64,000 bases of DNA, from positions 62,001 through 126,000 of the forward strand of contig NZ_JAGGJW010000010.1 in assembly GCF_017873175.1 (NCBI RefSeq). Direction: 5' to 3'. Of this stretch, positions 8,690 to 25,303 are shown piece by piece. Each line of letters begins with the position of its first letter. Positions within the stretch are counted from its first letter, which is position 1. The notes under the pieces are model-generated. The model worked only from the letters and a program-made list of their open reading frames with translations, was not told the origin of the DNA and searched no databases. Made by a program: the position numbers and the translations under genes. The DNA comes from Neorhizobium petrolearium. GTDB taxonomy: Bacteria > Pseudomonadota > Alphaproteobacteria > Rhizobiales > Rhizobiaceae.

Positions 8690-8710
8690 GGTTCGATTCC
8701 CTTCAAGACC
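8690..8710 (+). repeat. 21-bp direct repeat, copy 1 (tRNA T-loop-like)
   Basis: The 21 bases beginning GGTTCGATTCCC and ending TTCAAGACC recur exactly at 44337-44357 in the same orientation. GGTTCGATTCC resembles a tRNA T-arm, but the 3' stem does not pair with the 5' stem, so no intact tRNA is present. The last codons of the amidohydrolase gene overlap it. It may be an attachment-type site or recombination scar bounding ~35.6 kb. Confidence 0.6.
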
Positions 8711-10376
8711 CTAACTCTTCGGCATTAGTCTGCTCGCTGCACAGGTGACTTGCCAAGGCAGAGGTGACTTTGAGCCATTCGGACGTATCTTTGTGATTGA
8801 ATGCTTCTTCTAGGTTCATAGCAATCTGTTGAAGCCGGCTGAGTTCTTCATCGAATAGCGCTGCGTGGGCTGCTTCTCCATAGTGGCGGTCCGCAAAAGC
8901 CTGAGCGGAATGAGCCAGCATGAAGTACCCGACCGCCCGCACGGGGTCGGCGACCGCTGCTTCGCGCGCGGCTACAGCAGCCGCCTGATAGGCTTTTACG
9001 GCATTGCCTTTTTGGCGGATGATGTCTGTGATCTTGGTGAACATAGGGCCATTATCCTTTGCTGTCTGGCTGTCAACCGTGGCCTTGCAGGAGGAGGGGG
9101 GCAAATTGATCAGGAACTGATTCAGAATGAAGGTAGCAATCGCGAAATCGTCGATCTCCATCGCTTCCTGCGGGTTGTGCGAGCCGTTGCGGTTGCGGAT
9201 GAAGATCATGCCGGATGGAATGCCCGCATCGGAAAACACCGCTGCATCATGTCCGCCGCCGGAGGGGATCAACGCCGGCTGCGTGCCGATTGCGCGTGAT
9301 GCATGGGCAAGCTGCTCGATGAGCCCCGTGTCGCAGAGGGCCGGACTAGTCCAAAGAGCCTGCCCGAGGTCGAAGCGCACGGCACGTTCCTTCTCGATGC
9401 GGACCACATGCTTCAGCACCAGCGCATGCATCGTTTCCAGCATGTCGCGGTCCTGGCTGCGGATGTCGAGGCTGAACTCGACGCTGTCGGGGATGCGAGA
9501 AAGCGCGTGTTTCTGCTGGTCAGTGGAGACCATGCCGCTGGTAACGACGAGATCGCGTCCCTTTGCCACGAAATCGTGCCAAGCCGCATCGAGCACGTTG
9601 AGCAATTCCGCCATGGCCAGCACCGGGTCATGCCGGTAGGCGAGGGGAACCGCACCCGAATGTCCAGCCTCGCCGAAGCAGGAGATCTTCTTGTATCGGA
9701 AATTGCCGCGGATGCCGGAAACGATCGCCGCCGGCAGATTGCGCTCGATCAGCACCGGACCCTGTTCGATATGCACTTCTACATAGGCCTTCACCGCTGT
9801 CCGGTCGAGAAGCGGTTTACCGGAGCGGACGGGCATCATGTCTATGCCCACTGCCTCCATATGTTCATCGAGCGTGCGGCCGTCCTTCTTGTGGCGTGCA
9901 GAAAGTTCGGTTTCCGACAGCACGCCGAGCAAGGCTTTGGACGCGATATAACAGGGGCCGAACCAGGCGCTTTCCTCGCCCCGCATAGCGATGACTTTTA
10001 CCGGTTCGGGAAAACGGGTGCCTTCGCGCCGGGCGCGGACGAGGCAGAGCAGGCCGGCCAGCACGCCGGCCAGTCCGTCGAAATTGCCGCCACGCGGCAC
10101 GCTGTCAACATGCGAGCCGATCAGGATATAACGTTCGGCGCTTGTATGTTCGGGCAGCGAGAAGACGACATTGCGGCCGGCGTCCCATTGCGTGAAGAGG
10201 CTCTCGGAACGGGCGAACTCGACCAGGAAATTCAGCGTCTCCGTCTCGATTTCGGAAAAGGCCGGGCGGCTCACGCCTTCTGCATCGGCGGTGCGCGCTG
10301 CGATCTCCGCGAACAGCCGGGTTGCCGTATCGGCGATATCGAAGCAGATGGGCCTTTCGAGAACGGCGGCGTTCAT
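8703..10376 (-). CDS. M20 family carbamoyl-amino-acid amidohydrolase with an extra C-terminal domain
   Basis: The first ~430 residues are an N-carbamoyl-L-amino-acid hydrolase/allantoate amidohydrolase/beta-ureidopropionase-type enzyme. Metal-site residues are visible at H89, D100, E134/E135, H202 and a late NGSHNP histidine. It would remove CO2 and NH3 from an N-carbamoyl amino acid. The family is normally 410-430 residues; this one is 557. The last 113 residues (from M445, ATG at 9044) are alanine-rich, predicted helical and unrelated to M20 enzymes. An AAGGA-like site precedes that internal ATG, so the tail could also be made separately. It overlaps pyrD by 1 base at its start. Its last residues run into the 21-bp repeat. 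Confidence 0.82.
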   Translation of the reverse strand: MNAAVLERPICFDIADTATRLFAEIAARTADAEGVSRPAFSEIETETLNFLVEFARSESLFTQWDAGRNVVFSLPEHTSAERYILIGSHVDSVPRGGNFDGLAGVLAGLLCLVRARREGTRFPEPVKVIAMRGEESAWFGPCYIASKALLGVLSETELSARHKKDGRTLDEHMEAVGIDMMPVRSGKPLLDRTAVKAYVEVHIEQGPVLIERNLPAAIVSGIRGNFRYKKISCFGEAGHSGAVPLAYRHDPVLAMAELLNVLDAAWHDFVAKGRDLVVTSGMVSTDQQKHALSRIPDSVEFSLDIRSQDRDMLETMHALVLKHVVRIEKERAVRFDLGQALWTSPALCDTGLIEQLAHASRAIGTQPALIPSGGGHDAAVFSDAGIPSGMIFIRNRNGSHNPQEAMEIDDFAIATFILNQFLINLPPSSCKATVDSQTAKDNGPMFTKITDIIRQKGNAVKAYQAAAVAAREAAVADPVRAVGYFMLAHSAQAFADRHYGEAAHAALFDEELSRLQQIAMNLEEAFNHKDTSEWLKVTSALASHLCSEQTNAEELGS

Positions 10377-11311
10377 TATGCGTACTCCGCAAGGGTGATG
10401 GCTTCGTCGGCGATGTCGACCGTGCCGATCAGGGCGTCGACGGAAGGAAGGCCGCGTCTTTCGACTTCCTGTTCGAGCTCACGGACAAGGCATGGCATGG
10501 TGGTGGGGCTGATGAAGGTGGCGGTGCCGACCTGCACGGCGCGGGCACCGGCGATTAGGTATTCGAGCACGTCGTCGACGGTCGAGATACCGCCGCAGCC
10601 GATCACCGGAATGGCGACGGCGCGGGCACACTGATAGGTCATGCGCAGTGCGATCGGCTTCAGCGGCGGTCCGGAAAGCCCGCCCATGACATTGCCGAGC
10701 CGGACGCGGCCGGTGCGGCTGTCGATCGCCATGGCGAGCATGGTGTTGGCGGTGACGAGCGCATCTGCGCCAGTTGCTTCTGCAGCCTGCGCTACCTCCA
10801 CGACTTCGCCGGTATTGGGCGAAAGCTTTGCCCAGAGCGGCAGATCGGTGGCGGAGCGCATCTTGCGGATGACGTCGCCGGTCGGGCCGGGCCGCATGGC
10901 GAACGCCTTGCCGTCGTCCTCGATATTGGGGCAGGAGATATTGACCTCGATCGCGGCCACGCCCGGCACGCTGACTTCCTCGGCAAAGCGGGCGAATTCG
11001 TCCGCCGTATTGGCGGAAATGCTGATCACCAGCGGCGCCTCGTAATCCGCATAGAAGGGCACGATGTTCTTCAGGAACCATTCGGCGCCCTTGCTCGGGA
11101 TGCCGATCGAGTTCAGCATCGCACCGCCTATCTCGCAGACGCGTGGCACGGGATTGCCGGGGCGCTTTGCCCGGGTGATCGTTTTCGTCACATGCGCGCC
11201 GAGGCAGTCGAGGTCGAAAACTTCCGCTAGTTCCTCGGAAAACGTGCCGGAGGCCGGCATGATCGGGTTCGTCAGCGTCAGCGCGCCGATCCTGGTGGTA
11301 AGGTCGCCCAT
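10376..11311 (-). CDS. pyrD: Dihydroorotate dehydrogenase-like protein, class 1B catalytic subunit
   Basis: This 311-residue FMN TIM barrel interconverts dihydroorotate and orotate or acts on a related pyrimidine. Class 1 hallmarks are present: K43, N67 in MLNSIG, the catalytic-base cysteine C127 in VNISCPN, and LGNVMGGLSGPPLKPIALRM. The ATG at 11311 overlaps the pyrK stop as TGATG. The adjacent PyrK-like gene makes it the NAD-linked 1B type, whereas alphaproteobacterial biosynthesis normally uses the membrane class 2 enzyme. With an amidohydrolase, nucleoside phosphorylase and importer beside it, a degradative role (orotate or uracil reduction) is more likely than biosynthesis. That is inference. 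Confidence 0.85.
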   Translation of the reverse strand: MGDLTTRIGALTLTNPIMPASGTFSEELAEVFDLDCLGAHVTKTITRAKRPGNPVPRVCEIGGAMLNSIGIPSKGAEWFLKNIVPFYADYEAPLVISISANTADEFARFAEEVSVPGVAAIEVNISCPNIEDDGKAFAMRPGPTGDVIRKMRSATDLPLWAKLSPNTGEVVEVAQAAEATGADALVTANTMLAMAIDSRTGRVRLGNVMGGLSGPPLKPIALRMTYQCARAVAIPVIGCGGISTVDDVLEYLIAGARAVQVGTATFISPTTMPCLVRELEQEVERRGLPSVDALIGTVDIADEAITLAEYA

Positions 11312-12159
11312 CACAGCACCTCCTGCAGATCGAAGACTGGGCCTTCGCGGCAGACGCGCAGGTTGACCGCGCTACTCTCGCTCCGGAAGGGCCGCACGCA
11401 AGCCTGGCACATGCCGATGCCGCAGGCCATGTGCTGTTCGAGCGCCACCTGTCCGCCGATCCCGTGCCGGGCGCCGATCTCCTGCAGCATGCGCATCAGC
11501 CGGGCCGAGCCGCAGGTGAAGAAGGCATCGATGCCACGGCTGCGGATCAGTCCTTCGATCAATGCGGTCAGGTTTTCGACGCTGGAATTGCCGTCTGTAT
11601 CGGTGACGGCAATGACTTCGGCGCCGCAGGAGCGGAAGAGGTCGGTCGACATCAAAAGATCCGGCGAACGGGCACTGCAGACCGCCGTCAGCGGCCGACC
11701 GAGGTTCGCAAATTCCCGGGCGAGCGGGGCGAGCGTAGCAAGCCCGACGCCGCGGGCGACGAGCAGCGGTCGGCGCCATTCGGGCCGGATTTCGAAGCCC
11801 TGCCCGAGCGGGCCGACAATGTTCAGGCTTTCGCCAGGTTTCAGTTCGGCCATCGCGCCGGTGCCGGTGCCTGCGACCTTATAGAGAAAGGAAAGCTCTC
11901 CTTTCATCCGATCATAGGAATAGATGCTCATCGGCCGGCGCAAATAGGGCTTGAAGCGGTCCGTCTGTGGGCAAAGAAGATGGAAGAACCGGCCCGGTGC
12001 GCAATCGAGTACAGCAGCCGGTGCTGCAAGCACGAGCAGGCGATATTGGCCGTTCACCCATTCATGGATTTTCACCCGGGCCTCGACCTCGTGGATCGAA
12101 GGCTGCCGCGAAACGCCGGCAGAAATGGAATCGGGGACGGCACAAAGACTGGCTGACAT
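11311..12159 (-). CDS. pyrK: PyrK-like FAD/2Fe-2S electron-transfer subunit
   Basis: This 282-residue protein resembles the electron-transfer subunit of class 1B dihydroorotate dehydrogenase. A ferredoxin-reductase-type FAD domain (RRPMSIYSYD) is followed by an NAD-binding domain and a C-terminal 2Fe-2S loop with cysteines C246, C251, C254 and C270 (CGIGMCQAC...C). It passes electrons between NAD(H) and the FMN of the partner subunit. It is the first gene of the leftward pyrK-pyrD-amidohydrolase operon and is divergent from the XRE regulator. Confidence 0.85.
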   Translation of the reverse strand: MSASLCAVPDSISAGVSRQPSIHEVEARVKIHEWVNGQYRLLVLAAPAAVLDCAPGRFFHLLCPQTDRFKPYLRRPMSIYSYDRMKGELSFLYKVAGTGTGAMAELKPGESLNIVGPLGQGFEIRPEWRRPLLVARGVGLATLAPLAREFANLGRPLTAVCSARSPDLLMSTDLFRSCGAEVIAVTDTDGNSSVENLTALIEGLIRSRGIDAFFTCGSARLMRMLQEIGARHGIGGQVALEQHMACGIGMCQACVRPFRSESSAVNLRVCREGPVFDLQEVL

Positions 12160-12477
12160 GAGAGCTTCCGAACTGAGAAAAATAGGCCCCTCGGCAGATC
12201 TGGCCGCCGGTCGAGGGCATGTCTATTGTGTGAGGGGGGGGCGACGGAGAGCTGAGTTCAGATCCCGCTCGTCGCGCGCGGCCGGTCGCTTATGGTCAGC
12301 GTCGGGCGGAAAGGCGGTCGGACGTCATAGGGTGCTCCCTGCGTTCAAAAACAGAGCCTAATTTGGAAATGCGAAAGCTGTCAAGACGATTCTCAAAAAT
12401 GAGATTTTTCGCATGAAAATTACCTTCATTGCGAATTGTCCATTTTTTGTATAGAGAGTCGAAGATTTAACAATAAT
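12160..12477. promoter_or_regulatory. Divergent promoter region, pyrK operon / XRE regulator
   Basis: This is 318 bases without a gene. The half near the regulator is AT-rich and carries the operator-like repeat at 12391-12404. The half near pyrK is GC-rich with a run of eight G around 12233-12240 and no structure I can name. Confidence 0.6.
12391..12404. promoter_or_regulatory. Operator candidate TCTCA-N4-TGAGA, site 1
   Basis: TCTCA-AAAA-TGAGA is a perfect inverted repeat 74 bases upstream of the XRE regulator start. The same arms and spacing occur at 13438-13451, and a near match occurs at 21920-21933 by the paralogous regulator. The shared pattern suggests the binding site of these XRE proteins. 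Confidence 0.6.
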
Positions 12478-13392
12478 ATGACGGAAGGAATCGCCTTGGA
12501 CTTCGTGAGTTCCACAGAGGATGTCGGTCGTCGCCTTCGCGCTTTCCGTATGGGGGCCGGTCTTACCCCGGAAGAGCTTGCGGCCAAGGCCGGCGTGTCG
12601 CGAGCCGCAATTTACCGATATGAATCCGGCAAACCGCCGAAGGTCGACACCCTTGGCAAGATCGCCGACCTGCTTGGCGTCTCGCTGCCGACGCTGCTGG
12701 GCGTTGGAGTGGAATACATCGCTTCGGCGATCAGTTTCTTTGAGCGCATGCGCCAGATGGAAGAAGATGTCGATCAGATCACGGTGATGTTCGGACCGAT
12801 CTCCTACCTGCTTACAACCGATCGCTATGACGAACTGCTGCCGAAAGTGCTGGATGAAAGCATTCCGCAGGATGTCGGCGACCGGAAGGCGGCAATCCGC
12901 GAAATCGGCGCGCTGATGGATATCCTCAAGACCCGCAAGGAGACTTTCCGCCGCCGAAGCCCCAATATCGTCAGCCTTGTCTCGGCGGCGGAACTGGAAG
13001 ATTTCGGGCGCGTTGGCTTCATCGGCGCCCATAATCCGCCGGGCATCAATCTGGCCGAACGGCAGGCGGCAGCCCATGACGAAATCCACAATATCGTTCG
13101 CATGCTGCGCGAGCAGCCGATCGGTGTGCAGATCGGTGTGGTGATCGATTCCATGCCGGGCGCGAGCTTCCAGGTATTCAAGCGGGCTGACAAGGCGCAG
13201 GTTGCTGTCAGCCCGTTCCGGCTCGGCGCCTTTGCCAATATCCGTGTCGGGGTCGCGACGATTACGGGCGCGGCGGAAGCCGTGCAGCTTTATGGCAGCA
13301 TGACCGATCAGCTCTGGCGGCGCAGCCTCAAGGGTGATCAGGCCGCCGACTTCGTCGAGAAGAACATTCTTCACCGTCAGGCTGCGGCCTGA
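12478..13392 (+). CDS. XRE-type HTH regulator with a conserved C-terminal domain (copy 1)
   Basis: This 304-residue protein has an HTH_3 domain at about residues 14-70 (VGRRLRAFRMGAGLTPEELAAKAGVSRAAIYRYESG in pieces) and a ~230-residue C-terminal region without a motif I can name. The start at 12478 follows the AT-rich leader. It is clearly paralogous to the regulator at 21993: both share SxxFFERMRQ, FGPxSYLLT, PPIGVQIG/QPIGVQIG and VAVSPFRLG. It sits between the pyrK operon and the ABC/phosphorylase operon and probably controls both through TCTCA-N4-TGAGA sites. The C-terminal domain presumably senses a ligand brought in by the transporter. Confidence 0.82.
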   Translation: MTEGIALDFVSSTEDVGRRLRAFRMGAGLTPEELAAKAGVSRAAIYRYESGKPPKVDTLGKIADLLGVSLPTLLGVGVEYIASAISFFERMRQMEEDVDQITVMFGPISYLLTTDRYDELLPKVLDESIPQDVGDRKAAIREIGALMDILKTRKETFRRRSPNIVSLVSAAELEDFGRVGFIGAHNPPGINLAERQAAAHDEIHNIVRMLREQPIGVQIGVVIDSMPGASFQVFKRADKAQVAVSPFRLGAFANIRVGVATITGAAEAVQLYGSMTDQLWRRSLKGDQAADFVEKNILHRQAAA

Positions 13393-13434
13393 GGACCGTT
13401 CTCATATTTCAGGTGATTGCTGCGATTTTGATAC

Positions 13435-13454
13435 AAATCTCATCTTTGAGATTT
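13435..13454. promoter_or_regulatory. Operator candidate AAATCTCA-N4-TGAGATTT, site 2
   Basis: AAATCTCA-TCTT-TGAGATTT is a perfect 8+8 inverted repeat between the regulator gene and the ABC ATPase gene. Its core matches site 1. It lies about 125 bases before the ATPase start, where it could control the transporter/phosphorylase operon. Confidence 0.65.
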
Positions 13455-13577
13455 TGGTTGCGTCGGTGAAAGTTTTGTGAAAGCTTGGTTTCTTTCCCGG
13501 GCGGGCCAATGACGCAAGAGGATATTTGATCCTCCGAAAAGCTGTTGGCGCCCGGCTGCTAGGCATGGGAGTTTTTG

Positions 13578-14351
13578 GTGGCGCAATCGGAGCGGATGAT
13601 TGACATCGTGGGTGTTCACAAGACATTCGTCTCGGACCACGGCACAGTGACGGCGTTGGAGCCGGTCAGCATCACCATCAAGCCTGGTGAATTCATCTCG
13701 ATCGTCGGCCCTTCCGGCTGCGGCAAGTCCACCCTGCTGCGCCTGATCTCCGGCCTCGACCAGGCGAGCGGCGGTACGATCACCCTCGATACGGCTGGCC
13801 GCAAGCGCCCTGTCGGCTTCGTTTTCCAGGAGCCGGTGCTGCTGCCTTGGAAGACGATCATCGAGAATGTCCGCTTCCCGCTCGATACAGCCGGTGTGGG
13901 CCGCGCCCAGGGCGACAAGATCGCGCTCGACCTCATCAAAATGGTCGGGCTGGCAGGCTTCGAGAAGGCCTTGCCGCGGCAATTGTCGGGTGGCATGCGC
14001 CAGCGCGCCGCGATCGCCCGCTCGCTGTCCGACGATCCGCCGATCCTTTTGATGGACGAACCTTTCTCGGCGGTCGATCTTATGACCCGCGATACGTTGA
14101 ACGACGAGCTGTTGCGCATCTGGCAGTCGACCGGCAAGACGATCCTGCTCGTGACCCACAGCGTCGACGAAGCAGCCTATCTCGCCGACCGGGTGATGGT
14201 GATGACCGCACGGCCCGGCAAATTGAAATGCATCCACGACGTTGATCTGGCCCGTCCGCGCGGCGAGAAAACCAAACTCGATCCGGCCTATCACGCGCTG
14301 GTCGCCCAGCTTCGCCGCGATCTTCGTATTTCCGGCGGGGAGGCGCATTGA
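13578..14351 (+). CDS. ABC transporter ATPase, nitrate/taurine/NMT1 type
   Basis: This 257-residue ATPase has Walker A GPSGCGKST, Q-loop FVFQEPVLLPW, signature LSGGMRQRAAIARSL and Walker B ILLMDEPFSAVD. The FQ(E/D)..LLPW variant is typical of SsuB/TauB/ThiZ-like importers. The GTG at 13578 is taken as start because GGGA lies 7 bases before it; a TTG immediately upstream is possible. It works with the permeases at 14351 and 16913 and the binding protein at 15906. The neighbouring enzymes suggest a pyrimidine nucleoside or base as substrate. Confidence 0.88.
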   Translation: MAQSERMIDIVGVHKTFVSDHGTVTALEPVSITIKPGEFISIVGPSGCGKSTLLRLISGLDQASGGTITLDTAGRKRPVGFVFQEPVLLPWKTIIENVRFPLDTAGVGRAQGDKIALDLIKMVGLAGFEKALPRQLSGGMRQRAAIARSLSDDPPILLMDEPFSAVDLMTRDTLNDELLRIWQSTGKTILLVTHSVDEAAYLADRVMVMTARPGKLKCIHDVDLARPRGEKTKLDPAYHALVAQLRRDLRISGGEAH

Positions 14352-15115
14352 TGGCCAAGCGCCTCGCTGCCTGGGTCGATTACGCGCTGGCACTCATCGT
14401 GCTTCTGGCCGCCTGGTGGTTTGCGACCGGGCCTATGGAAATGCCGACCTATCTCCTGCCGTCGCCGCTGCGCACCTGGAACGCGCTGGTCGGCATCGCG
14501 GTGACCGGTGAACTCTGGGTGCATCTTGGCTTCACGCTGCAGAATATCGTCCTCGGCCTCGTTTTCGGCTGCGTTGCGGGGATTGCTCTCGCTTATCTCA
14601 TGACGCGCTTTCCGAAACTCGCCGTCTGGCTGGACGGCCCGCTGGTCATCCTGCAGACCGCGCCGAAGATTGCGCTGGCGCCTCTCTTCGTCGTCTGGTT
14701 CGGCTTCGGCATCCTGTCGAAGATCATCCTGATCTTCTCGCTGGTCTTCTTTCCGGTCTTCATTGGCGCGGTTTCCGGTTTCCGCTCGCTCGATCCGAAG
14801 ATGAAGGATCTCGCCAAGCTGCTGAGTCTCGGCACCTTCCAGCGGTTTCGCCAGATCGAATTGCCGTCGGCCATGCCGGAGATCTTCGTTGGCCTGAAAA
14901 TCGGCGCGGTGCAGGCGCTGGTCGGCGCGGTTCTCGCCGAATGGATGTCCGGCAAGTTCGGCCTCGGCTACCTGATGACCTTCGCGTCGGCGACGTACAA
15001 GACGCCGCTTCTCTTTGCCGCCGTGCTGATGACGGTCGTGTTGGGGCTTCTCCTGCATGTCATGCTGACCATGCTGGAAAATCGGCTACTGTCCTGGAAG
15101 GGCGCGAAGAAATGA
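14351..15115 (+). CDS. ABC transporter permease (SsuC/TauC-like), subunit 1
   Basis: This is a 254-residue inner-membrane permease with about six helices and the EAA-type loop around the FRSLDPKMKDLAKLLSLGT stretch. It starts in a TGATG overlap with the ATPase stop and overlaps the phosphorylase start by 4 bases, so translation is coupled. A second, related permease lies at 16913, so the channel is probably a heterodimer. Confidence 0.88.
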   Translation: MAKRLAAWVDYALALIVLLAAWWFATGPMEMPTYLLPSPLRTWNALVGIAVTGELWVHLGFTLQNIVLGLVFGCVAGIALAYLMTRFPKLAVWLDGPLVILQTAPKIALAPLFVVWFGFGILSKIILIFSLVFFPVFIGAVSGFRSLDPKMKDLAKLLSLGTFQRFRQIELPSAMPEIFVGLKIGAVQALVGAVLAEWMSGKFGLGYLMTFASATYKTPLLFAAVLMTVVLGLLLHVMLTMLENRLLSWKGAKK

Positions 15116-15909
15116 CCAAGACGAGCGCCGCCTTTCCCTGGAAGAACGGCCGGCCGCCGCATCTGCCCTGCGGCCCGGGCGACATCGCCGAAAATGTGCT
15201 TACACCGGGCGACCCGGATCGTGTGCGACTGCTTGCCGACATGCTGGAAGACGTGACCGATTTCGGCCGCAAGCGCGAATTCGCGGTCATCACCGGTATC
15301 TATGAAGGCCAGCGCCTGACGATATGCTCGACCGGCATCGGCGGTCCTTCGACGGAGATCGCGCTGGTCGAGCTTGCCATGCTCGGCGCCAGGCGTGTGG
15401 TGCGGATCGGCGGCATGTCTTCGCTCGTGGCCGAATATGCAACCGGCTCCTTCGTCGCCGTCGACAGGGCGATCGGCGATACGGGCACCGCGCGCACCTA
15501 TCGCGCCGTTGGCGGGGAAGCGAAGGCCTTCCCCCGTGTTGTCACAGGTCTTGTGAAGGCGGCCGCCGAACTCGGGCTTGCCTGCCGCCCCGGCATGGTC
15601 GCCTCGACGGACAGCTATTATTTTGGTCAGGACCGCCGCTACCGTCCCCAGGGTGATGGGCAGGACCTTTCCGGCAATTTCATCGATCGCTTTCAGGCTG
15701 AGGGCGCCATCGGCATCGAGATGGAAAGCGAAATCATTTTGACCGTCGGCGGGGCGATCGGCCTTGAAACCGGCTGCCTACTTGGTGTCCATGGAAATCG
15801 CGCCACCGACGACTGGCTCGATGACTATGAGACAACCCAGCGAAACCTTCTGCGCATCGCAGGAAGGGCTTTTTCCTCCACTGAATGGGAACTCAGGAGC
15901 CAACCATGA
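15112..15909 (+). CDS. Uridine phosphorylase-like nucleoside phosphorylase (NP-I family)
   Basis: This 265-residue enzyme belongs to the hexameric nucleoside phosphorylase family, which splits a nucleoside with phosphate to give the free base and ribose-1-phosphate. Visible features are the phosphate-site GDPDRVR, STGIGGPSTEIAL, and the ribose-site GIEMESE. The overall pattern is closer to uridine phosphorylase than to purine nucleoside phosphorylase, though specificity is not proven. The ATG at 15112 overlaps the permease stop by 4 bases (ATGA). Phosphopentomutase at 17667 takes ribose-1-phosphate onward, and the pyrD/pyrK/amidohydrolase operon could handle the base. Confidence 0.82.
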   Translation: MTKTSAAFPWKNGRPPHLPCGPGDIAENVLTPGDPDRVRLLADMLEDVTDFGRKREFAVITGIYEGQRLTICSTGIGGPSTEIALVELAMLGARRVVRIGGMSSLVAEYATGSFVAVDRAIGDTGTARTYRAVGGEAKAFPRVVTGLVKAAAELGLACRPGMVASTDSYYFGQDRRYRPQGDGQDLSGNFIDRFQAEGAIGIEMESEIILTVGGAIGLETGCLLGVHGNRATDDWLDDYETTQRNLLRIAGRAFSSTEWELRSQP

Positions 15910-16910
15910 TCCAGTTTCGCGTGACGACCGCAGCGAGCCTCGTCGCTTTGCTCACCTCGCCGCTCTTTGCCATGACCGCCGAAGCCGCTGACAAGGTGGT
16001 GATGCAGATCGATGGCGCCGCCGTGCCTTTCTACGCGCCGCTTTATGCCGGCGTCGAAAAGGGTATTTTCGAGAAGAACGGCATCGAAGTGGAGTTCATC
16101 TACGCCGCTGCCGCAGACATCCTGACCAACATTGCCGCGGGCAATGTCGACTTCGGCTTCCCGAACGGCGATGCCGTGGTCGCCGCCGCTGCCAATGGTC
16201 TGCCAGTCAAGGTTGTGCACACCGCCTATCAGCGGGGCATCGGCGCCCTGCTTGCGAAGGAAACCAGCGGTATCGAGTCCTACAAGGACCTGAAGGGCAA
16301 GAAGGTCGCCGTCACCAGTCTCGCCAGCCCCAACTACCTGCAGCTCCAGGTGGGCCTGCAGCAAGCCGGTTTGACGATCGACGACGTCTCCGTCGAAGTG
16401 GTCGCCACTGGCGCCATCGTCCAGTCGCTGCAGTCCGGCCAGGTCGATGCGATCGTCTTCTCCGAACTGCGCAAGTACAATCTTGAGGCCGACGGCACCA
16501 AGGTCACGATGATCCTGTCGAACGACTTCCTGCCGTCCTTCGGCAACGTCGTCGTCACCAGCGACAAGAAGCTCTCCGAAAATCCGGATCTCGTGAAACG
16601 CTTCACCACCGCCATCAGCCAGTCCTATCAATGGGTGATCGACGGCCATGTCGGTGACGCTCTGGACATAGCACTCGAAAAGTACGCGCCCACCTGGCCG
16701 AAGGACCAGAAGGGCATCCTGACGACCGCTTTCGAGCAGACATTCGTTCCGTCCGTCTGGCAGAGCCCTCTGACCAAGGAAAAGGGCCTTGGTGCGGCAG
16801 ATCTCGCTGCCTGGCAGAAGAATGCCGACATTCTGGCGCAGTACAAAGTCATCGACGATGCGCCGAAGGCTGCCGACTTCGTTGTCGATCCGTCCACCAT
16901 CGGTAAGTAA
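15906..16910 (+). CDS. ABC transporter substrate-binding protein, NMT1/THI5-like
   Basis: This 334-residue periplasmic protein has a Sec signal ending near TAEAAD and the NMT1/SsuA-like fold (PLYAGVEKGIFEKNGIEVEF, NVDFGFPNGDAV, DLKGKKVAVTS). The ATG at 15906 follows CAGGAG. This family binds pyrimidine precursors, alkylsulfonates and similar small molecules. Genetic linkage to a nucleoside phosphorylase makes a pyrimidine nucleoside or base attractive here, without direct evidence. Confidence 0.88.
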   Translation: MIQFRVTTAASLVALLTSPLFAMTAEAADKVVMQIDGAAVPFYAPLYAGVEKGIFEKNGIEVEFIYAAAADILTNIAAGNVDFGFPNGDAVVAAAANGLPVKVVHTAYQRGIGALLAKETSGIESYKDLKGKKVAVTSLASPNYLQLQVGLQQAGLTIDDVSVEVVATGAIVQSLQSGQVDAIVFSELRKYNLEADGTKVTMILSNDFLPSFGNVVVTSDKKLSENPDLVKRFTTAISQSYQWVIDGHVGDALDIALEKYAPTWPKDQKGILTTAFEQTFVPSVWQSPLTKEKGLGAADLAAWQKNADILAQYKVIDDAPKAADFVVDPSTIGK

Positions 16911-16912
16911 GC

Positions 16913-17656
16913 ATGATACTGCGTGGCATAGCGGGTCTGATCGCGACCCTCGTCCTGTGGACTGCGATCGTCGTCATCTTCGACGTTCCGGCTTTTCTCT
17001 TGCCGGGACCCACAGATGTGTTCGATCGTGTCTATTTCCTCTTCGAGAATGCCAAGCTCGCCCGGCATATCTGGGTAACGCTCTCGGAGATCATCGCGGG
17101 CTTCGTCATCGGGACAGCCGCCGGCATTTTGGCCGGCGTCGTTTTCGCGCGCTTCCCGCGTATCGAACGCTTTGCCACGCCGCTCATCCTGCTTCTCCAG
17201 ACCGCGCCAAAGATCGCGATCGCACCCCTTCTTCTCCTCTGGCTCGGCATCGGCCCGGCTCCGAAGATCGTGCTGATCGCGATCGTCACCTTCTTCCCCG
17301 TCATGGCGGGCATGGTGACGGGCTTGCGCTATGGGGAAGGCAGCTTCCGTGATCTCGCGGCGGTACTGAAGCTCAATCCCTGGCAGCGCTTCCGGCACAT
17401 CGAACTGCCTTCTGCACTGCCATCCGTGCTCGCCGGCATGGCGGTGGCCACGACGCTTGCCATGACTGCTGCCGTCATCGGCGAACTGATCGGTGCCAAC
17501 GAAGGCATCGGCTACCTTCTGTCCTCCGGCCAAGAGAACAGCGACACGGCGGTCGTCATCGGCATGGTCATGCTTTTGTCCTTGATCGGTTGGGGCTTCT
17601 ACGAACTCATCGAGCTGATCCGTCGCCGTTCGCTCGGCCGTTTCCAGCTTTCCTGA
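16913..17656 (+). CDS. ABC transporter permease (SsuC/TauC-like), subunit 2
   Basis: This 247-residue, six-helix permease starts two bases after the binding-protein stop. It shows the family motif LLLQTAPKIAIAPLLLLWLGIG followed by an EAA-like loop. It is homologous to the permease at 14351, which has ILQTAPKIALAPLFVVWFGFG, and the two probably pair. The gene order (ATPase, permease, phosphorylase, binding protein, permease, mutase) interleaves transport and metabolism in one operon. Confidence 0.87.
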   Translation: MILRGIAGLIATLVLWTAIVVIFDVPAFLLPGPTDVFDRVYFLFENAKLARHIWVTLSEIIAGFVIGTAAGILAGVVFARFPRIERFATPLILLLQTAPKIAIAPLLLLWLGIGPAPKIVLIAIVTFFPVMAGMVTGLRYGEGSFRDLAAVLKLNPWQRFRHIELPSALPSVLAGMAVATTLAMTAAVIGELIGANEGIGYLLSSGQENSDTAVVIGMVMLLSLIGWGFYELIELIRRRSLGRFQLS

Positions 17657-17666
17657 GTTCGGATCA

Positions 17667-18845
17667 ATGGCACGCGTTTTCCTCTGCGTTCTCGATTCCG
17701 TCGGCTGCGGCGGTGCACCCGACGCGGTGCATTACGGCGACGAGGGATCCAACACGCTGCTGCATATCGCCGAAGCCTGTGCCGCCGGTCGAGCGGAAGA
17801 GGGCAGGAGCGGTCCGTTGAAGGTTCCGAACCTGAATGCCATGGGGCTCGGCGCCGCGATCACACTCGCCTCCGGTAAAGCTGCCCCCGGCCTTTCGGCA
17901 GTGCCTGGCGGATGGTGGGGCGCGGCTGAGGAAATTTCCGCCGGCAAGGATACCCAGTCCGGGCATTGGGAACTCGCCGGCGTACCGGTTGCGCGCGACT
18001 GGCATTATTTTCCGCGAACGGTTCCTGCCTTTCCTGTCGATCTGATGGCTGAACTGATCTCCCGATCCGGCCTTCCCGGGACGCTTGCCAATTGCCATGC
18101 TTCCGGCACGGAGATCATCGATCAATTCGGCCTCGAGCATATCGCGACCGGCAAGCCGATCGTCTACACCTCGGCCGACAGCGTCGTGCAGATCGCTGCC
18201 CATGAGGGGCATTTCGGCCTGGAGCGGCTGCTTGATCTTTGCCGCATCGCCGCCGACATCTTCCACCCGCTGAATGTCGGCCGCATCATCGCACGGCCCT
18301 TTGTCGGCGAGGCGCCGGGCGATTTCGTCCGCACCACCAACCGAAAGGATTTCGCCATCGCCCCGCCGGACGGGACGATCTGCGACCGCGTGGCGGCGTC
18401 GGGCGGCGCAGTCCATGCCGTCGGCAAGATCGGTGATATCTTCGCCATGAAGAGCATTTCTGATGTTTCCAAAGGCGGCGACGACATGGCGCTCTTCGAC
18501 CATGTGCTGGCCTTCACCGATAAGGCCAGGCCGGGTGATCTGATCTTCGCCAATTTCATCGAATTCGACAGCCTCTGGGGACATCGCAGGAATGTCGCCG
18601 GCTATGCCCGCGCACTCGAAGCTTTCGACGCGCGCCTGCCGGAACTGACAGCGCGCCTGCGCCCGGACGACCTGCTGATTATCACTGCGGACCACGGCAA
18701 CGATCCGACCTGGCCGGGTACGGACCACACCCGCGAGCGCGTGCCAGTGCTGGTAACCGGACCCCGCGTGACGGCGCGGAAACTGGGAATCGTTCCTTTT
18801 ACTGCTGTCGCGCAGTTGACTGCCTTGCATCTGAGCTGCCGGTAA
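17667..18845 (+). CDS. deoB: Phosphopentomutase
   Basis: This 392-residue alkaline-phosphatase-superfamily enzyme converts ribose-1-phosphate to ribose-5-phosphate. Expected residues are D10 near the N-terminus, T96 in GKDTQSGHWE (the phosphorylated threonine), FDSLWGHRR, and the metal motifs ADHGNDPTWPGTDHTRE. The usual length is ~405; the C-terminus is slightly divergent but keeps the family pattern. It closes the nucleoside operon by moving the sugar into the pentose phosphate pathway. Confidence 0.92.
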   Translation: MARVFLCVLDSVGCGGAPDAVHYGDEGSNTLLHIAEACAAGRAEEGRSGPLKVPNLNAMGLGAAITLASGKAAPGLSAVPGGWWGAAEEISAGKDTQSGHWELAGVPVARDWHYFPRTVPAFPVDLMAELISRSGLPGTLANCHASGTEIIDQFGLEHIATGKPIVYTSADSVVQIAAHEGHFGLERLLDLCRIAADIFHPLNVGRIIARPFVGEAPGDFVRTTNRKDFAIAPPDGTICDRVAASGGAVHAVGKIGDIFAMKSISDVSKGGDDMALFDHVLAFTDKARPGDLIFANFIEFDSLWGHRRNVAGYARALEAFDARLPELTARLRPDDLLIITADHGNDPTWPGTDHTRERVPVLVTGPRVTARKLGIVPFTAVAQLTALHLSCR

Positions 18846-19232
18846 GGCATCGCCGGACAGGATCGGACCATAGGCCTTCGATGTCATCATGAACCGCTCT
18901 GGAAAATCGCCTCCGAAGGCGCGCGATCCCTCCGTCCTTGCGTCATCAGCCAACTTCCGACCTCACGGGCGGCGGCATTGTCGACACGGCTCGGCCGAAT
19001 AAAGTGGAACCGGGATCGTAACGGAGTAAATCCCCAGGGCGCCACCAGCCTTCCCGTTTCGATTTCCGATTGGACATAGGCTCAGGCCGTCACAGCGATT
19101 CCGATCTCTGCCGAAGCCGCCTCGATCAAAAAGAAATTGTGCTCGAATCCGATCTCTCGCGCGGCAGGAGACAAAACACGCCTTTGTCGGACGACCAACG
19201 CATCCAACCCGGCGGCAAAGGTCTTGCAGCGA
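18846..19232. other. Gene-free interval holding a LysR remnant
   Basis: This is 387 bases between deoB and the next permease. Apart from the leftward LysR fragment described separately, I see no promoter, repeat or gene here. Confidence 0.5.
18930..19180 (-). pseudogene. LysR-family regulator, C-terminal remnant
   Basis: Read leftward, this stretch gives FEHNFFLIEAASAEIGIAVT, then a stop where a tryptophan codon is expected, then AYVQSEIETGRLVAPWGF and DNAAAREVGSWL. This order matches the end of the LysR substrate-binding domain of the GcvA-like group. The HTH domain is missing and the frame carries a TGA, so it is a decayed gene. Confidence 0.6.
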
Positions 19233-20006
19233 TCAGCCACCAATCCCGAATGTTGCGCCGCGCGTAGCCCAGCCTGTCATGCGTTTCTCGATTACCGCGA
19301 AGATCATGTACATGACGACGCCCATCACCGCGATAACCACAAGACCTGCGAAAACCAGCGGGATGCGGAAGTTGGCGGATGCCTGGGTCATCAGGGTGCC
19401 GATGCCGCGGTTCGACGCCAGAGTTTCGGATATCACGGACCCGACAAAGGCGAGGGTTATCGAGATTTTCAAGGATGCGAAAAGATAGGGCATCGAACGC
19501 GGTATCCCGACCTTGCGGACGATATCCAGCTGGCTTGCGCCAAGAGATCGCAGGACATCCCTGAGGTCGGGTTCGATGGTCGCCAGACCGGTGGCGACGT
19601 TGACCGCTATCGGAAAGAAACTCAGCATGAAGGCCGTTATCACTGCCGGGACGGACCCAATGCCGAACCACACCACGAGGATCGGTACAATCGCCACTTT
19701 CGGAATGGAATTAAAGGCGACAAGCAGGGGATAAAGGCTGGTATAGGCCACCCGCGAAGATCCGACCGCAATTCCCAGAAGCGCGCCGAATGCGACGGCG
19801 AATGCAAAGCCGATGACGGTCGTCAGCAGCGTCTGGCTGGAGTGAAACCATATGATGTAGAAATTCTCCGCCAGCGCTTCGGCAATCAGCGACGGCGAGG
19901 GCAGGACGAAGGGCGGGACCTCGAAAGTCTTGCACGACAGTTCCCAGACAAGCAGAAGGGCAACCGACAGAAGGACAGGCCCGGATCGTTCCAACGCGTT
20001 GTTCAT
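19233..20006 (-). CDS. ABC transporter permease (NMT1-type importer 2)
   Basis: This 257-residue permease has about six helices, with FNSIPKVAIVPILVVWFGIGSVP in the position of the family QTAPK..APL motif. It overlaps the ATPase gene upstream by 4 bases. It is the last gene of a leftward binding protein-ATPase-permease operon. The sole permease presumably works as a homodimer. Confidence 0.87.
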   Translation of the reverse strand: MNNALERSGPVLLSVALLLVWELSCKTFEVPPFVLPSPSLIAEALAENFYIIWFHSSQTLLTTVIGFAFAVAFGALLGIAVGSSRVAYTSLYPLLVAFNSIPKVAIVPILVVWFGIGSVPAVITAFMLSFFPIAVNVATGLATIEPDLRDVLRSLGASQLDIVRKVGIPRSMPYLFASLKISITLAFVGSVISETLASNRGIGTLMTQASANFRIPLVFAGLVVIAVMGVVMYMIFAVIEKRMTGWATRGATFGIGG

Positions 20007-20818
20007 GCCTTTTCTCCTGGCGCCGAGGGTTTGACGTCAATCGGCATGCGCTGGGAGCGAATATCGGAGCGCAGATCCATGACGCTTTCATTGAAGGCGG
20101 GTTCGAGGAAGGTCCGCTCCCCCCGAGGTCTGCTGAATTGAACCGTGCCGACGGTGCGGACCACCCGGCCGGGCCTGTTCGACATAACATGCACTTCGTC
20201 GGCGAGGTAGAGCGCCTCTCTCAGGTCATGCGTGACGAGAATTGCTGTAAAGCGCTGCTTCATCCAGATCGTCTGAAGAACATCCCAAAGCTCTTCCCGC
20301 GTGAAAGCGTCAAGGGCGCCGAAGGGTTCGTCAAGCATGAGTAGGCGCGGCTGGTGGATAAGCGAGCGGCACAGCGATGCACGCTGCTGCATGCCTCCCG
20401 ACAATTGCCATGGATAATGGTCGGCAAAGGCATCGAGACCCACGATCCGCAGGAGTTCCATGGCGCGATCCCTGAACTCCTGCTTTCTGGCTCGGAGTTG
20501 ATGCCGCTCCGGTCGCACGACTTCGAGCGGCAACATCACATTTTCGAGTGTTGTGCGCCAGGGTAGTAGATTCGGATTCTGGAAGGCCATTCCAACGATG
20601 TTCACGGGACCTGATATCTCATGACCGTCCACGACGACCGAACCGCCAGTGGCGGGCATCAAGCCCGTCACCAGCTTCATCAAAGATGATTTTCCGCAGC
20701 CGGACGGGCCGACGACAGCGGCAAAGGAACCTTCCGGTACTTTCATTGCCAGGTTAGAGACCGCCAGTGTTTTCCCATAGGAGAGGCTGACGTCGATCAA
20801 CTCAACGAGGTTTTTCAT
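20003..20818 (-). CDS. ABC transporter ATPase (NMT1-type importer 2)
   Basis: This 271-residue ATPase has Walker A GPSGCGKSS, Q-loop MAFQNPNLLPW, signature LSGGMQQRASLCRSL and Walker B LLMLDEPFGALD. The start at 20818 (MKNLVELIDVSL) gives normal family length; the longer frame adds unrelated sequence. It energises uptake with the permease at 19233 and the binding protein at 20859. Confidence 0.88.
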   Translation of the reverse strand: MKNLVELIDVSLSYGKTLAVSNLAMKVPEGSFAAVVGPSGCGKSSLMKLVTGLMPATGGSVVVDGHEISGPVNIVGMAFQNPNLLPWRTTLENVMLPLEVVRPERHQLRARKQEFRDRAMELLRIVGLDAFADHYPWQLSGGMQQRASLCRSLIHQPRLLMLDEPFGALDAFTREELWDVLQTIWMKQRFTAILVTHDLREALYLADEVHVMSNRPGRVVRTVGTVQFSRPRGERTFLEPAFNESVMDLRSDIRSQRMPIDVKPSAPGEKA

Positions 20819-20858
20819 CCATGCTTCCGTGGCTGCTGAGGGGAACGCTCTATACAGC

Positions 20859-21881
20859 TTACTTCGGCGGCATCCGCTCGCCGGCGGCAGGGAGGTACTC
20901 GGTTGTGTAGATCTTGTTGGCTGCCGGTGCGGTAATCTTGAATGCATCGGCATTGGTCTGGATCGTAAGCGCCATACGGGCGGGATCGACGTATCCCAAC
21001 CCATTCTGCTCGAACGACGGCGACTTCAGGACGCCTCGATCCATCAAAAACTTCAGGCGGGCGGCTTCCAGCTTCACATCGTATAGCGGCTCGATTTCCT
21101 TCATTGCCCGCATGCCCGCCGCCGGATCCTTGAGCAAGGCGATAGTGCCTGCGATGGAAGCCTTGACGAACCCCTTGATGACATCCGGATGCTTGGCGAT
21201 GTAGTCCGGCTTCGCCACCAGTGCGCTTCCGTAAAGATCGAGGCCGTTGTCCGCGTAGCCGAGAACGACGATGTCCTTCTCCGGAACGCCGGCGGAAATG
21301 AGATTGAACACCGATGTCGAGGAGAATCCCGAAATCGCGTCCACTTGGCCTTGCGCCAGCATGGTCTCACGGAGGTTTGGCGCCATCGAGGTCCAGTTGA
21401 TCGAAGACGGATCTATCTTATTTGCCTTTGCGAACGCGCTGAACATCAGGCGGCTCGAATCCGCCTCGGGAGCGCCTAGCTTCTTGCCGGCGAGATCGGC
21501 GGGCGTCTTTATACCTGACTTCGCAAGGGCGATGATCGAATTGGGGGTCTTGTCGAACACTTGATAGAAAGCGATAAGGCCGCGATCCGGGTTTTCCGCG
21601 TTGAACTTTATCAGGGAATTGATGTCTGTAAAGCCGATGTCGTAGGCGCCGGCGGCGACCTTGACGATGGTATCACCGGAGCCGTAGCCGCGGTCCATGG
21701 TGACCTTCAGACCATTGGCCTCGAAATCCCTGTTTTTTAGTGCCAGGCCCCATATCGCGTGATTGCCCTGAAGCGTCCAGTCCAGTGAGAATTTCACCGG
21801 AGTGAGCTGCTGCGCTGCCACAGGCATGGCAAAGGCCGCAAACGCGATGACGGCCGAAAAAAGGTTTTTGAAATTTCGCAC
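20859..21881 (-). CDS. ABC transporter substrate-binding protein, NMT1/THI5-like (importer 2)
   Basis: This 340-residue periplasmic protein has a Sec signal (cleavage near VAAQQ) and the ThiY/NMT1 pattern VKFSLDWTLQGNHAIWGLALKNRDFEANGL in parts, GSGDTIVKVAAGAYDIGFTD and DLAGKKLGAP. Proteins with the (F/L)xLDW start commonly bind hydroxymethyl-pyrimidine-like or nucleobase ligands. It is divergent from the second XRE regulator, with an operator-like repeat between them. Confidence 0.88.
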   Translation of the reverse strand: MRNFKNLFSAVIAFAAFAMPVAAQQLTPVKFSLDWTLQGNHAIWGLALKNRDFEANGLKVTMDRGYGSGDTIVKVAAGAYDIGFTDINSLIKFNAENPDRGLIAFYQVFDKTPNSIIALAKSGIKTPADLAGKKLGAPEADSSRLMFSAFAKANKIDPSSINWTSMAPNLRETMLAQGQVDAISGFSSTSVFNLISAGVPEKDIVVLGYADNGLDLYGSALVAKPDYIAKHPDVIKGFVKASIAGTIALLKDPAAGMRAMKEIEPLYDVKLEAARLKFLMDRGVLKSPSFEQNGLGYVDPARMALTIQTNADAFKITAPAANKIYTTEYLPAAGERMPPK

Positions 21882-21919
21882 TGTAAGTTCCCTATTTTTT
21901 GATCTTGATATACCGCGTA

Positions 21920-21942
21920 TCTCAAAAATTAGACACTGTCTA
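21920..21942. promoter_or_regulatory. Operator candidates in the divergent importer 2 / regulator 2 promoter
   Basis: TCTCA-AAAA-TTAGA (21920-21933) matches the TCTCA-N4-TGAGA sites at 12391 and 13438 with one mismatch. It overlaps a second, perfect palindrome, TAGACA-C-TGTCTA (21930-21942). Both lie between the binding-protein start (21881) and the regulator start (21993). Confidence 0.55.
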
Positions 21943-21992: not shown

Positions 21993-22862
21993 ATGCTGGA
22001 AACTGACGCGCTTCGGGATGTCGGGGCGAGATTGAGGGCTTACAGGCTCGGGCGAAACCTTTCGCCGGAGGCCGTCGCGGATCAGCTCTCCATGTCGCGC
22101 GCGGCTCTTTACCGGGCTGAGCGAGGAGAAATTCTCAAAATTGAGACGCTTGTTCGAATCAGCCGCCTGCTGGATGCGTCACTGCCCAATTTGCTGGGCG
22201 TGGGAATCGAATATGTCGACACGGCCGTGGCTTTTTTCGAAAGGATGCGACAGATCGAAGGCGAAAGCGACCAGATTATCGGCTTTTTCGGGCCGCTCTC
22301 CTATCTGCTGACTTCCGAAAACTACGACGCGATGTTGGCGGTGGCCTTGAGCGATAACCGAAGCGACGATGAGGCGACCGATATGGCCATCGGCAAACTT
22401 CTGGAAATCCTGCGCGAACGCAGGGAGCATTATCAACGAAGACGTCCGTTGCTGGTCAACCTCATCGCGATGCCTGAGCTCAGGCGGTTCGTGGCGAACG
22501 GCCTTGTTTTGCGCGACGATCTATCGGAGGAAGAGCGGGAGAGAAGGCGGCTCATGGCGCGCACAGAAGTCGACCATATACTGAGCCTGGTTCGCAAACC
22601 GCCGATCGGTGTCCAGATCGGCATCATCACCGGCGTGGTGCCTGCGACGAACTTCCAGATATTCAGGCAGCCTCAGCGTTCGCTCGTCGCCGTCAGCCCG
22701 TTCCGGCTCGGCGAGCAGCCAAACGTCCGCGTCGGCGTTGGGACTTTCACCATGTCTGTCGAAGGCGTCAGACTGTACGAGGATATAGCGCAGTCGATGT
22801 GGGAAAAGGCCGCCAAGGGAGATGATGCGGCAAGCCTGCTTATAGACCTCATGAAAAAATAA
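21993..22862 (+). CDS. XRE-type HTH regulator with a conserved C-terminal domain (copy 2)
   Basis: This 289-residue paralogue of the regulator at 12478 has an HTH_3 at about residues 8-62 (VGARLRAYRLGRNLSPEAVADQLSMSRAALYR in parts) and the same C-terminal domain with AFFERMRQIE, FFGPLSYLLT, PPIGVQIGII and VAVSPFRLG. The ATG at 21993 follows GGGGGAAGAGG. It is divergent from importer 2 and probably regulates it and itself. The pair illustrates a regulator family dedicated to NMT1-type importers. Confidence 0.82.
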   Translation: MLETDALRDVGARLRAYRLGRNLSPEAVADQLSMSRAALYRAERGEILKIETLVRISRLLDASLPNLLGVGIEYVDTAVAFFERMRQIEGESDQIIGFFGPLSYLLTSENYDAMLAVALSDNRSDDEATDMAIGKLLEILRERREHYQRRRPLLVNLIAMPELRRFVANGLVLRDDLSEEERERRRLMARTEVDHILSLVRKPPIGVQIGIITGVVPATNFQIFRQPQRSLVAVSPFRLGEQPNVRVGVGTFTMSVEGVRLYEDIAQSMWEKAAKGDDAASLLIDLMKK

Positions 22863-23035: not shown

Positions 23036-23836
23036 TGTCACGTTACTGGCGACTTAAGGGTTGAAGGCTAAGCCGGCGCCATGAACCCGTCGATCGTCAG
23101 CTACAAAAATCATCGTTTTCCACCGCAGATCATTGCCATGCCGTGTGGCTTTATTTTCGGTTTCCTCTGAGCCTGCGGCTGGTCGAGGAAATGCTTCTGG
23201 AGCGCGGCATCGTCGTCTCCTATGAAACGATCCGGCGATGGAGCAGTAAGTTCGGTGCTGCCTGCGCAAAGCAGTTGCGAAGAAAGAAGCCGTCGCGAAA
23301 GGACACCTGGTTACCTGGACGAGATGGTGATTTCCATAGGTGGCCAGAAACACTGGCTTTGGCGAGCTGTCGACCAGCACGGATATGTTCTCGATGAAAT
23401 CGTACAGGCTCGTCGTGACACGACGGCTGCCAGGCGATTGCTGGTCAGGCGGCTGAAGAAGCAAGGCCTCACGCCGAAGCGGATCATTACCGACAAGCTG
23501 CGCTCATATGGAGCGGTAAAGCGGGATGTGATGCCTTCAGTCAAACATCGATCGCATAAAGGCTTGAACAATCGCACGGAAAATTCACACCTGCCGCTGC
23601 GAAAGCGAGAACGGGTGATGAAAGGCTTCCGATCCGCCGGCGGATTGCAACGATTCATCGCGGTCTTTTCGGCAATCAGAAATCACTTTGTCCCGTCCCA
23701 CCAGAAGCACACCGCCCTCGCCACCCACATTCATCGTATCCGTGCAATGGCGCAGTCGAAGGCCGTAACCGGTGCAGCTGCCTCAGTTCAACGGCAAGCC
23801 CTTCGCCCGGCTTCAATCAAACAACCTGACATCACC
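23031..23836 (+). mobile_element. Decayed IS6-family insertion sequence
   Basis: The 806-bp element is bounded by GGTGATGTCA (23031-23040) and its inverse TGACATCACC (23827-23836). Flanking 8-mers CGTCATCG and CGTCATTC match at six positions, consistent with an eroded 8-bp target duplication, the IS6 size. The transposase (from ATG 23081) starts MNPSIVSYKNHRFPPQII. It then has a one-base deletion near 23138 (GCCATGCC for GCCCATGCC) and a one-base insertion near 23313 after KDTW, returning to the original frame. YLDEMVISIGG and VKHRSHKGLNNRTENSH are recognisable IS6 DDE-domain parts. It is probably inactive. Confidence 0.72.
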
Positions 23837-23874
23837 CGTCATTCACATGCTCTTCGATCTTTTCGATCGCTGCC

Positions 23875-24531: not shown

Positions 24532-24542
24532 TTTGGTCCTCC

Positions 24543-25301: not shown

Positions 25302-25303
25302 AC

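Follow-up and report, generated by a model that had tools for sequence, protein, structure and literature searches.

What is controlled by a short palindrome that recurs in front of genes for paralogous regulators and importers? This question is raised by a stretch of 64,000 nucleotides from Neorhizobium petrolearium (assembly GCF_017873175.1, contig NZ_JAGGJW010000010.1, positions 62,001 to 126,000; hereafter "the window"), in which copies of the dyad TCTCA-N4-TGAGA lie near two genes for XRE-type transcriptional regulators and two gene sets for ABC importers. A sequence-only reading had proposed that the dyad is a shared operator linking both regulators and both importers. Our analysis leads us to consider it likely that TCTCA-N4-TGAGA is the operator of a family of XRE-type regulators and that these proteins, presumably acting as activators, control an operon for a PyrK-like subunit, a dihydroorotate dehydrogenase (DHOD) and a hydrolase, a second operon for the importer ABC1 and probably also regulator 2 with the importer ABC2. 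We regard it as very probable that the dyad is a real and conserved operator, whose most constant target is orotate catabolism, followed by the ABC1/nucleoside phosphorylase operon.

The three copies on which the sequence-only reading was built are indeed present. Operator O1 (12391-12404, TCTCAAAAATGAGA, exact) lies where the promoters of regulator 1 and of the pyrK-DHOD-hydrolase operon diverge, operator O2 (13438-13451, TCTCATCTTTGAGA, exact) is located upstream of the ABC1 operon within a perfect 8+4+8 inverted repeat (13435-13454), and the operator-like O3 (21920-21933, TCTCAAAAATTAGA, one mismatch) is situated between the binding-protein gene of importer 2 and regulator 2. With the starts that we chose from the sequence and from alignment to relatives (ATG 12478 for regulator 1, ATG 21993 for regulator 2), all three are intergenic. 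A fourth exact copy (22133-22146, plus strand), overlooked in the earlier reading, falls within the regulator 2 gene; as homologues in L017, L018, L020 and L023 (handles of this type denote loci, those with G genomes) have versions with one or two mismatches at apparently the same coding place, it is probably a coding coincidence. A scan of the whole genome (6.97 Mb) retrieved five exact copies, three of them, including the one inside the regulator 2 gene, within this 9.8 kb, and when an A/T spacer was demanded and up to one mismatch allowed, eight places were found, four of them in this stretch. Five other genomic copies, exact or with one mismatch (L001, L037, L038, L041 and L042), all lie inside open frames of more than 100 codons. 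A degenerate copy with two mismatches, TCTCATATTTCAGG, is found at 13400-13413, 38 bp upstream of O2, and is possibly a weak second site.

The dyad is conserved in relatives. The nine closest ones (L064-L072) retain both O1 and O2, each exact in nine of nine orthologues, and O1 is also exact in N. galegae (L178 and L179). A broader survey covered 80 loci, the best 80 of at least 542 matching stretches. In the 350 bp preceding the regulator match, the dyad is exact in 41 of the 80 and carries one mismatch in a further 16, so the orthologous promoters keep the site. When any 5-mer half-site with spacings of 0-12 was admitted in a de novo scan of the same upstream regions, TCTCA with a spacing of 4 ranked first (41 loci); at this spacing the next half-site reached six loci, the other 29 permutations of TCTCA none, and mononucleotide shuffles a mean of 0.02 loci. 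Altogether the 80 loci (1.49 Mb) contain 63 exact copies, none of which lies within a recognised gene, that is, a homologue of one of 17 window proteins, other genes in these loci being unannotated. Frequent random copies inside genes, which would have spoken against the proposal, are thus not seen. The great majority of the 63 (58) are found at most 450 bp upstream of the genes for the regulator, the ABC1 ATPase, PyrK or the hydrolase, and the remaining five (L075, L092, L137, L138, L141) have TTGAC 6 or 7 bp away.

Another survey covered 297 genomes of the family. The regulator is encoded in 30 of them, the genome of the window included (E 1e-20), and is accessory, since no match to it was obtained at E 1e-60 in seven further members of the genus. 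Of 29 genomes with the regulator, 21 contain the exact dyad with an A/T spacer, and in 19 of these 21 it lies within 400 bp of a regulator match; among 20 genomes lacking the regulator, one (G016) has it. The dyad is conserved in Rhizobiaceae, Phyllobacteriaceae, Roseobacteraceae and Paracoccaceae, and a one-mismatch form is found in Thalassospira and Desulfovibrionaceae. Some copies lie outside this pattern: G251 has two exact ones about 5 kb from its regulator (one of the two, L056, is without TTGAC nearby), the copy at L052 (G055:C28) is adjoined by no homologue of the window genes, and G061 has a third copy.

Which genes are the targets? The notion of a shared operator withstood examination, but the sequence-only reading, in which O1 belonged to the promoter of regulator 1, had missed that O1 also lies at the promoter of the DHOD operon (8703-12159, minus strand). 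This operon is divergent from regulator 1, and among relatives the operator is found with it more constantly than with either importer. The operon encodes a PyrK-like electron-transfer subunit (11311-12159), which remains below the family cut-offs (best score 124.4 versus 270) and still has its best matches in PyrK families, a DHOD of the class 1B type (10376-11314), which passes the cut-off of NF005574 (322.6 versus 269 bits) and is closest to the solved PyrD subunit of DHODB (1ep1, E 3.8e-65), and an amidase of the hydantoinase/carbamoylase family (8703-10376; TIGR01879, 263.8 bits versus a cut-off of 204), a candidate ureidosuccinase. The second target, the ABC1 operon on the plus strand, comprises genes for the ATPase (13575-14351), a first permease (14348-15115), a divergent, uridine phosphorylase-like nucleoside phosphorylase (15112-15909; PNP_UDP_1, below the TIGR01718 cut-off with 145.4 versus 280.3 bits), an NMT1-type binding protein (15885-16910), a second permease (16913-17656) and phosphopentomutase (17667-18845; TIGR01696, 424.4 bits versus a cut-off of 341.2). 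In an alignment with a solved uridine phosphorylase, FGQDR and EMES of the phosphorylase stand opposite PGQER and EMES; GQxR and EMES are pyrimidine-binding stretches.

The operator accompanies these operons when they are located elsewhere. ABC1 operons apart from the other flank of the regulator have a dyad of their own in L047, L075, L078, L107, L121 and L134; the separate ABC1 operon of L110 has a one-mismatch dyad without TTGAC, and that of L111 has none. Likewise, separate PyrK operons carry their own dyad in L075, L113, L121 and L181 and, with intervening genes, in L137, L138 and L141. Among seven annotated plasmid records, six list orotate-related genes next to the regulator. In those from Klebsiella, Nitratireductor, Roseicitreum, Variovorax and Agrobacterium, DHOD and hydrolase genes adjoin the regulator (the electron-transfer subunit is named in four), and each also carries a gene for orotate phosphoribosyltransferase, dihydroorotase or orotidine-phosphate decarboxylase; two genes for orotidine-phosphate decarboxylase are found on a second Agrobacterium plasmid, and the Alicycliphilus record is unlike the six others. 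This gene content points to orotate catabolism as the controlled pathway. In the reductive degradation of orotate by anaerobic orotate fermenters, orotate is converted via dihydroorotate and N-carbamoyl-aspartate to aspartate. The window resembles that system in having genes for a class-1B-type DHOD, a PyrK-like subunit and a carbamoyl-amino-acid hydrolase, apparently in a single operon; no dihydroorotase gene was seen in the part of the window neighbourhood that was read, whereas the Klebsiella and Variovorax clusters have pyrC.

Two further observations concern the target genes. In two Agrobacterium plasmids (L146, 7323-7336; L181, 8348-8361), a one-mismatch dyad, TCTAAATA(A/C)TGAGA, lies directly upstream of a gene for an MFS transporter adjoining the regulator, and this transporter is possibly a further target. 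The amidase of the window has a C-terminal extension of 132 amino acids (8703-9101, minus strand) that resembles, with 31% identity, a separate protein of about 108 amino acids encoded next to the orotate gene cluster in Roseicitreum (L148); the extension is present in 11 of 86 loci searched, namely in the Neorhizobium group and Agrobacterium L181.

The operator also keeps a nearly fixed distance from the promoter. On the catabolic side of O1, a perfect −35 hexamer, TTGACA (12379-12384, minus strand), is found 6 bp from the operator, followed after an 18-bp spacer by a putative weak −10 element, TAGGCT (12355-12360, minus strand), which is also present in L064-L072. Across 57 operators read on the side facing away from the regulator, the distance to the start of TTGAC is exactly 6 bp in 43 and lies between 6 and 8 bp in 50; in the other seven, TTGAC starts at 12 (one) or 24 (two) or is absent within 30 bases (four). 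On the regulator side, TTGAC occurs at that distance in none of the 57. Downstream of O2, the −35-like TTGCGT (13458-13463, plus strand) is again 6 bp away, and in L047, L075, L107 and L121 its place is taken by TTGAC. The −10 candidates are poor: among 53, TATAAT is matched at three of six positions in 41, at two in five, at four in six and at five in one. A generic promoter scan reported no promoter and did not detect TAGGCT; its single hit, a terminator-like site on the plus strand within regulator 1, did not exceed the yield from shuffled sequences. That the distance between operator and −35 hexamer is nearly fixed in several families points to contact with RNA polymerase and hence to activation.

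The proteins that would bind the dyad form one family. Regulator 1 (12478-13392, plus strand; HTH_3, 56.3 bits versus a cut-off of 23) combines an XRE helix-turn-helix with a C-terminal phospholipase-D-like (PLD-like) domain, and regulator 2 (21993-22862, plus strand; HTH_3, 34.3 bits against the same cut-off) is its deep paralogue with 43% identity. In a tree of 91 rows, each cut at its first stop (quick method, SH-aLRT support), regulator 1 falls into a clade of 52 rows (support 95) and regulator 2 into one of 23 (support 99), and a third group of nine (support 99) consists of loci without the dyad. The exact dyad was found in members of both paralogue clades, for regulator 2 in Nitratireductor, Stappia and others, so that a shared operator of XRE-type paralogues is supported. 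The recognition helix is common to both clades: S41, Y46 and R47 are invariant and R42 is nearly so in the 51 of 54 rows aligned (L086, which has a stop, L088 and the regulator 2 copy of L071 were left out). The sole row with isoleucine for R42 (L098, SIAS replacing SRAA) has TATCA-N4-TGATA, TATCAAATTTGATA, as its upstream dyad and is a candidate, from a single case, for a change of specificity. The N-terminal domain structurally matches P22 c2 (3jxb; Z 11.8, root-mean-square deviation (rmsd) 1.9 over 66 residues) and SinR (3qq6; Z 11.5, rmsd 1.3, 66 residues), and the family probably binds the dyad as a dimer. XRE regulators of the P22 c2 and SinR type have effector domains unlike those found here, and the present family further differs from XRE/Cro-C1 regulators in its TCTCA-N4-TGAGA operator and its metabolic regulon.

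Regulator 2 and its surroundings are less uniform. The ABC2 genes on the minus strand encode an NMT1-type binding protein (20859-21881), the ATPase (20003-20818, start inferred) and a permease (19233-20006). At the place of O3, L071, L178 and L179, the latter two being near-identical N. galegae plasmids, have TCTCAAAATTTAGA with the same half-site change. L178 belongs to N. galegae HAMBI 540, a strain that possesses both systems. The mismatch in O3 creates TCTAAT, close to a −10 element, on the importer 2 strand of the window; one may guess that this is the −10 of importer 2, in which case the bound regulator would repress. Just downstream of regulator 2, an open frame that by eye looks transposase-like (23222-23878) separates it from the genes at 23875-26704.

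A number of observations weigh against the dyad as the operator of this family, or against parts of that reading. In the window alone, four matches with up to one mismatch stand against 1.64 expected, and six of 100 shuffles reach four; given this weak statistic, it is the conservation in relatives that makes the case. The 80 loci include near-duplicates, and some genomes of the genome survey recur among them (L102, for example, is identical to the 3452-bp contig of G262). The counts are therefore of loci and not of independent events, and the two surveys are not independent of each other. In 23 of the 80 loci the upstream dyad is missing (two or more mismatches), although L102 offered only about 110 bp. 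The clade of nine (L118, L119, L122-L124, L126, L133, L139, L142) has no dyad with up to one mismatch in the locus outside recognised genes, and PyrK/DHOD genes are nearby in seven of the nine. For the 14 dyad-less loci comprising this clade and L113, L114, L120, L131 and L136, no alternative common dyad explains the group; in several an upstream gene reaches the start of the regulator, which does not account for all, and in L113 (exact) and L136 (one mismatch) the dyad is located after the regulator, before PyrK. Target operons without a dyad are present in L088 and L111, no dyad adjoins the regulator in L144, L147 and L149, and the regulator of L147 lies among genes of the xanthine dehydrogenase family. 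L134 has a TATCA-N4-TGATA dyad, TATCAAAATTGATA, near the exact TCTCATAAATGAGA, yet keeps SRAA without isoleucine, which weakens the reading of L098. O3 lacks the usual geometry, as TTGAC is absent on both sides of it in the window, L071, L178 and L179, and the regulator 2 copy of L180, recovered in three tblastn pieces, has no adjoining site with up to one mismatch. Finally, a perfect −35 hexamer combined with a weak −10 element is also compatible with a repressed promoter.

How far do these points favor other explanations? Apart from the modest count in the window, little recommends chance AT-rich palindromes, which we regard as extremely improbable: position, sequence and spacing are conserved across several bacterial families, and the de novo dyad scan rules such palindromes out. 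A proposal of the sequence-only reading that is compatible with the operator function is a network within one cell: each of the two regulators would also bind the sites of the other, and both importers would be cross-regulated. The sharing of the site is observed: the two deep paralogues, although in separate clades, have near-identical recognition helices, members of the clade of regulator 2 carry the same exact dyad, and two genomes (G007 and G183) with two neighboring paralogues each have one exact and one one-mismatch dyad (L163, L164). O3, however, is altered in one half-site and this change is kept in L071 and N. galegae, the other loci with two paralogues (L107, L166, L161 and L102, apparently two genomes, each represented twice) have one dyad or none, and flanking bases may discriminate between the paralogues. 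Cross-regulation of the importers is plausible, but we consider it less likely than not.

The alternative that touches the mode of action leaves operator and targets as they are and makes the protein a repressor that is bound beside the −35 hexamer, blocks RNA polymerase and is released by an inducer. Many XRE regulators are repressors, the −35 hexamer of the window is a perfect TTGACA, and the TCTAAT at O3 might allow occlusion on the ABC2 strand. An occluding repressor would not need an operator that stays clear of the −35 hexamer at a nearly fixed distance (exactly 6 bp in 43 of 57); the −10 candidates, moreover, are poor (three of six matches in 41 of 53), and we regard repression as rather unlikely. 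With an activator, events would probably unfold as follows. A dimer with an N-terminal helix-turn-helix and a PLD-like effector domain devoid of the HKD motif binds the dyad. Through O1 it would control the divergent pyrK-DHOD-hydrolase operon, by whose products orotate would be reduced to dihydroorotate and N-carbamoyl-aspartate hydrolysed, through O2 the operon for the ABC importer, nucleoside phosphorylase and phosphopentomutase, and through the weaker O3 probably regulator 2 and importer 2. For the operons under O1 and O2, ligand-dependent activation from a site with its center some 13 bp upstream of the −35 hexamer is the most likely mode, and the inducer may be orotate or a nucleoside of it.

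What could sense such an inducer? The C-terminal domains of both regulators match no Pfam family at E values up to 10, the full proteins match helix-turn-helix families only, and searches of NCBIfam, PDB sequences and Pfam returned no name for the effector domain. Its structural model (pLDDT 89.9) matches PLD-fold proteins, with SauUSI first (7clg; Z 11.0, rmsd 3.0 over 148 residues) and NucT among the others (6ehi; Z 10.6, rmsd 2.9, 132 residues). The domain thus shares its fold with the nucleases of the PLD superfamily (SauUSI, NucT, Zucchini); however, the catalytic HKD motif (HxKxxxxD) is present in none of 38 hand-chosen rows of an effector-domain alignment, and PLD-type catalysis is therefore not expected. 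The archaeal regulators TrmB (2f5t; Z 9.0, rmsd 3.4, 124 residues) and TrmBL2 (5bqt; Z 9.1, rmsd 3.2, 122 residues) are also similar, but differ in that the helix-turn-helix here is of the XRE type, and several PLD-family proteins score equally high or higher. Pfam includes a TrmB family, and the effector domain does not match it by sequence at E values up to 10. By analogy to TrmB, an effector-binding, non-catalytic domain would be the natural reading, while the shared fold by itself shows no function.

The leader of pyrK (12160-12330, minus strand) may add a second level of control. A GTTTTTG run directly follows the −10 element, and a leader open reading frame of ten codons, MTSDRLSARR* (12296-12328, minus strand), is present in the window and in ten of ten orthologues examined; in Agrobacterium L181 it reads MTLYRFVARR*. 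The frame ends with Arg-Arg-stop, but with Leu-Arg in L064. Just before pyrK, most aligned orthologues have a hairpin of the CGGCGG/CCGCCG type followed by a T-run. Attenuation or initiation sensitive to uridine triphosphate is possible; the leader has no Rfam match at E 0.1 and folds no better than shuffled sequences (z 0.41).

Taken to its furthest consequence, the gene content would allow an orotidine route, complete and undescribed, in which ABC1 imports orotidine, the divergent phosphorylase acts as an orotidine phosphorylase yielding orotate and ribose-1-phosphate, phosphopentomutase uses the sugar, the PyrK/DHOD/ureidosuccinase operon makes aspartate from orotate, the XRE-type activator with its dead PLD-like domain senses orotate or orotidine, and leader peptide and hairpin provide the additional layer of control. 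As a whole, this scheme is speculative and we deem it unlikely.

No description of the regulator, its operator or its regulon was found in the literature searched (titles and the opening of abstracts, with subscription journals poorly covered), and passages of PMC10041152 and PMC5320631 have no bearing on this regulator or operator. A large unnamed family of regulators (at least 542 matching stretches), in which an XRE helix-turn-helix is joined to a PLD-like effector domain without catalytic motif, gains a likely binding site, a likely target pathway and a mode of action that is open to experiment. Operons for orotate and pyrimidine catabolism could be located through their operator, and its near-fixed distance from the −35 hexamer makes the choice between activation and repression directly testable.

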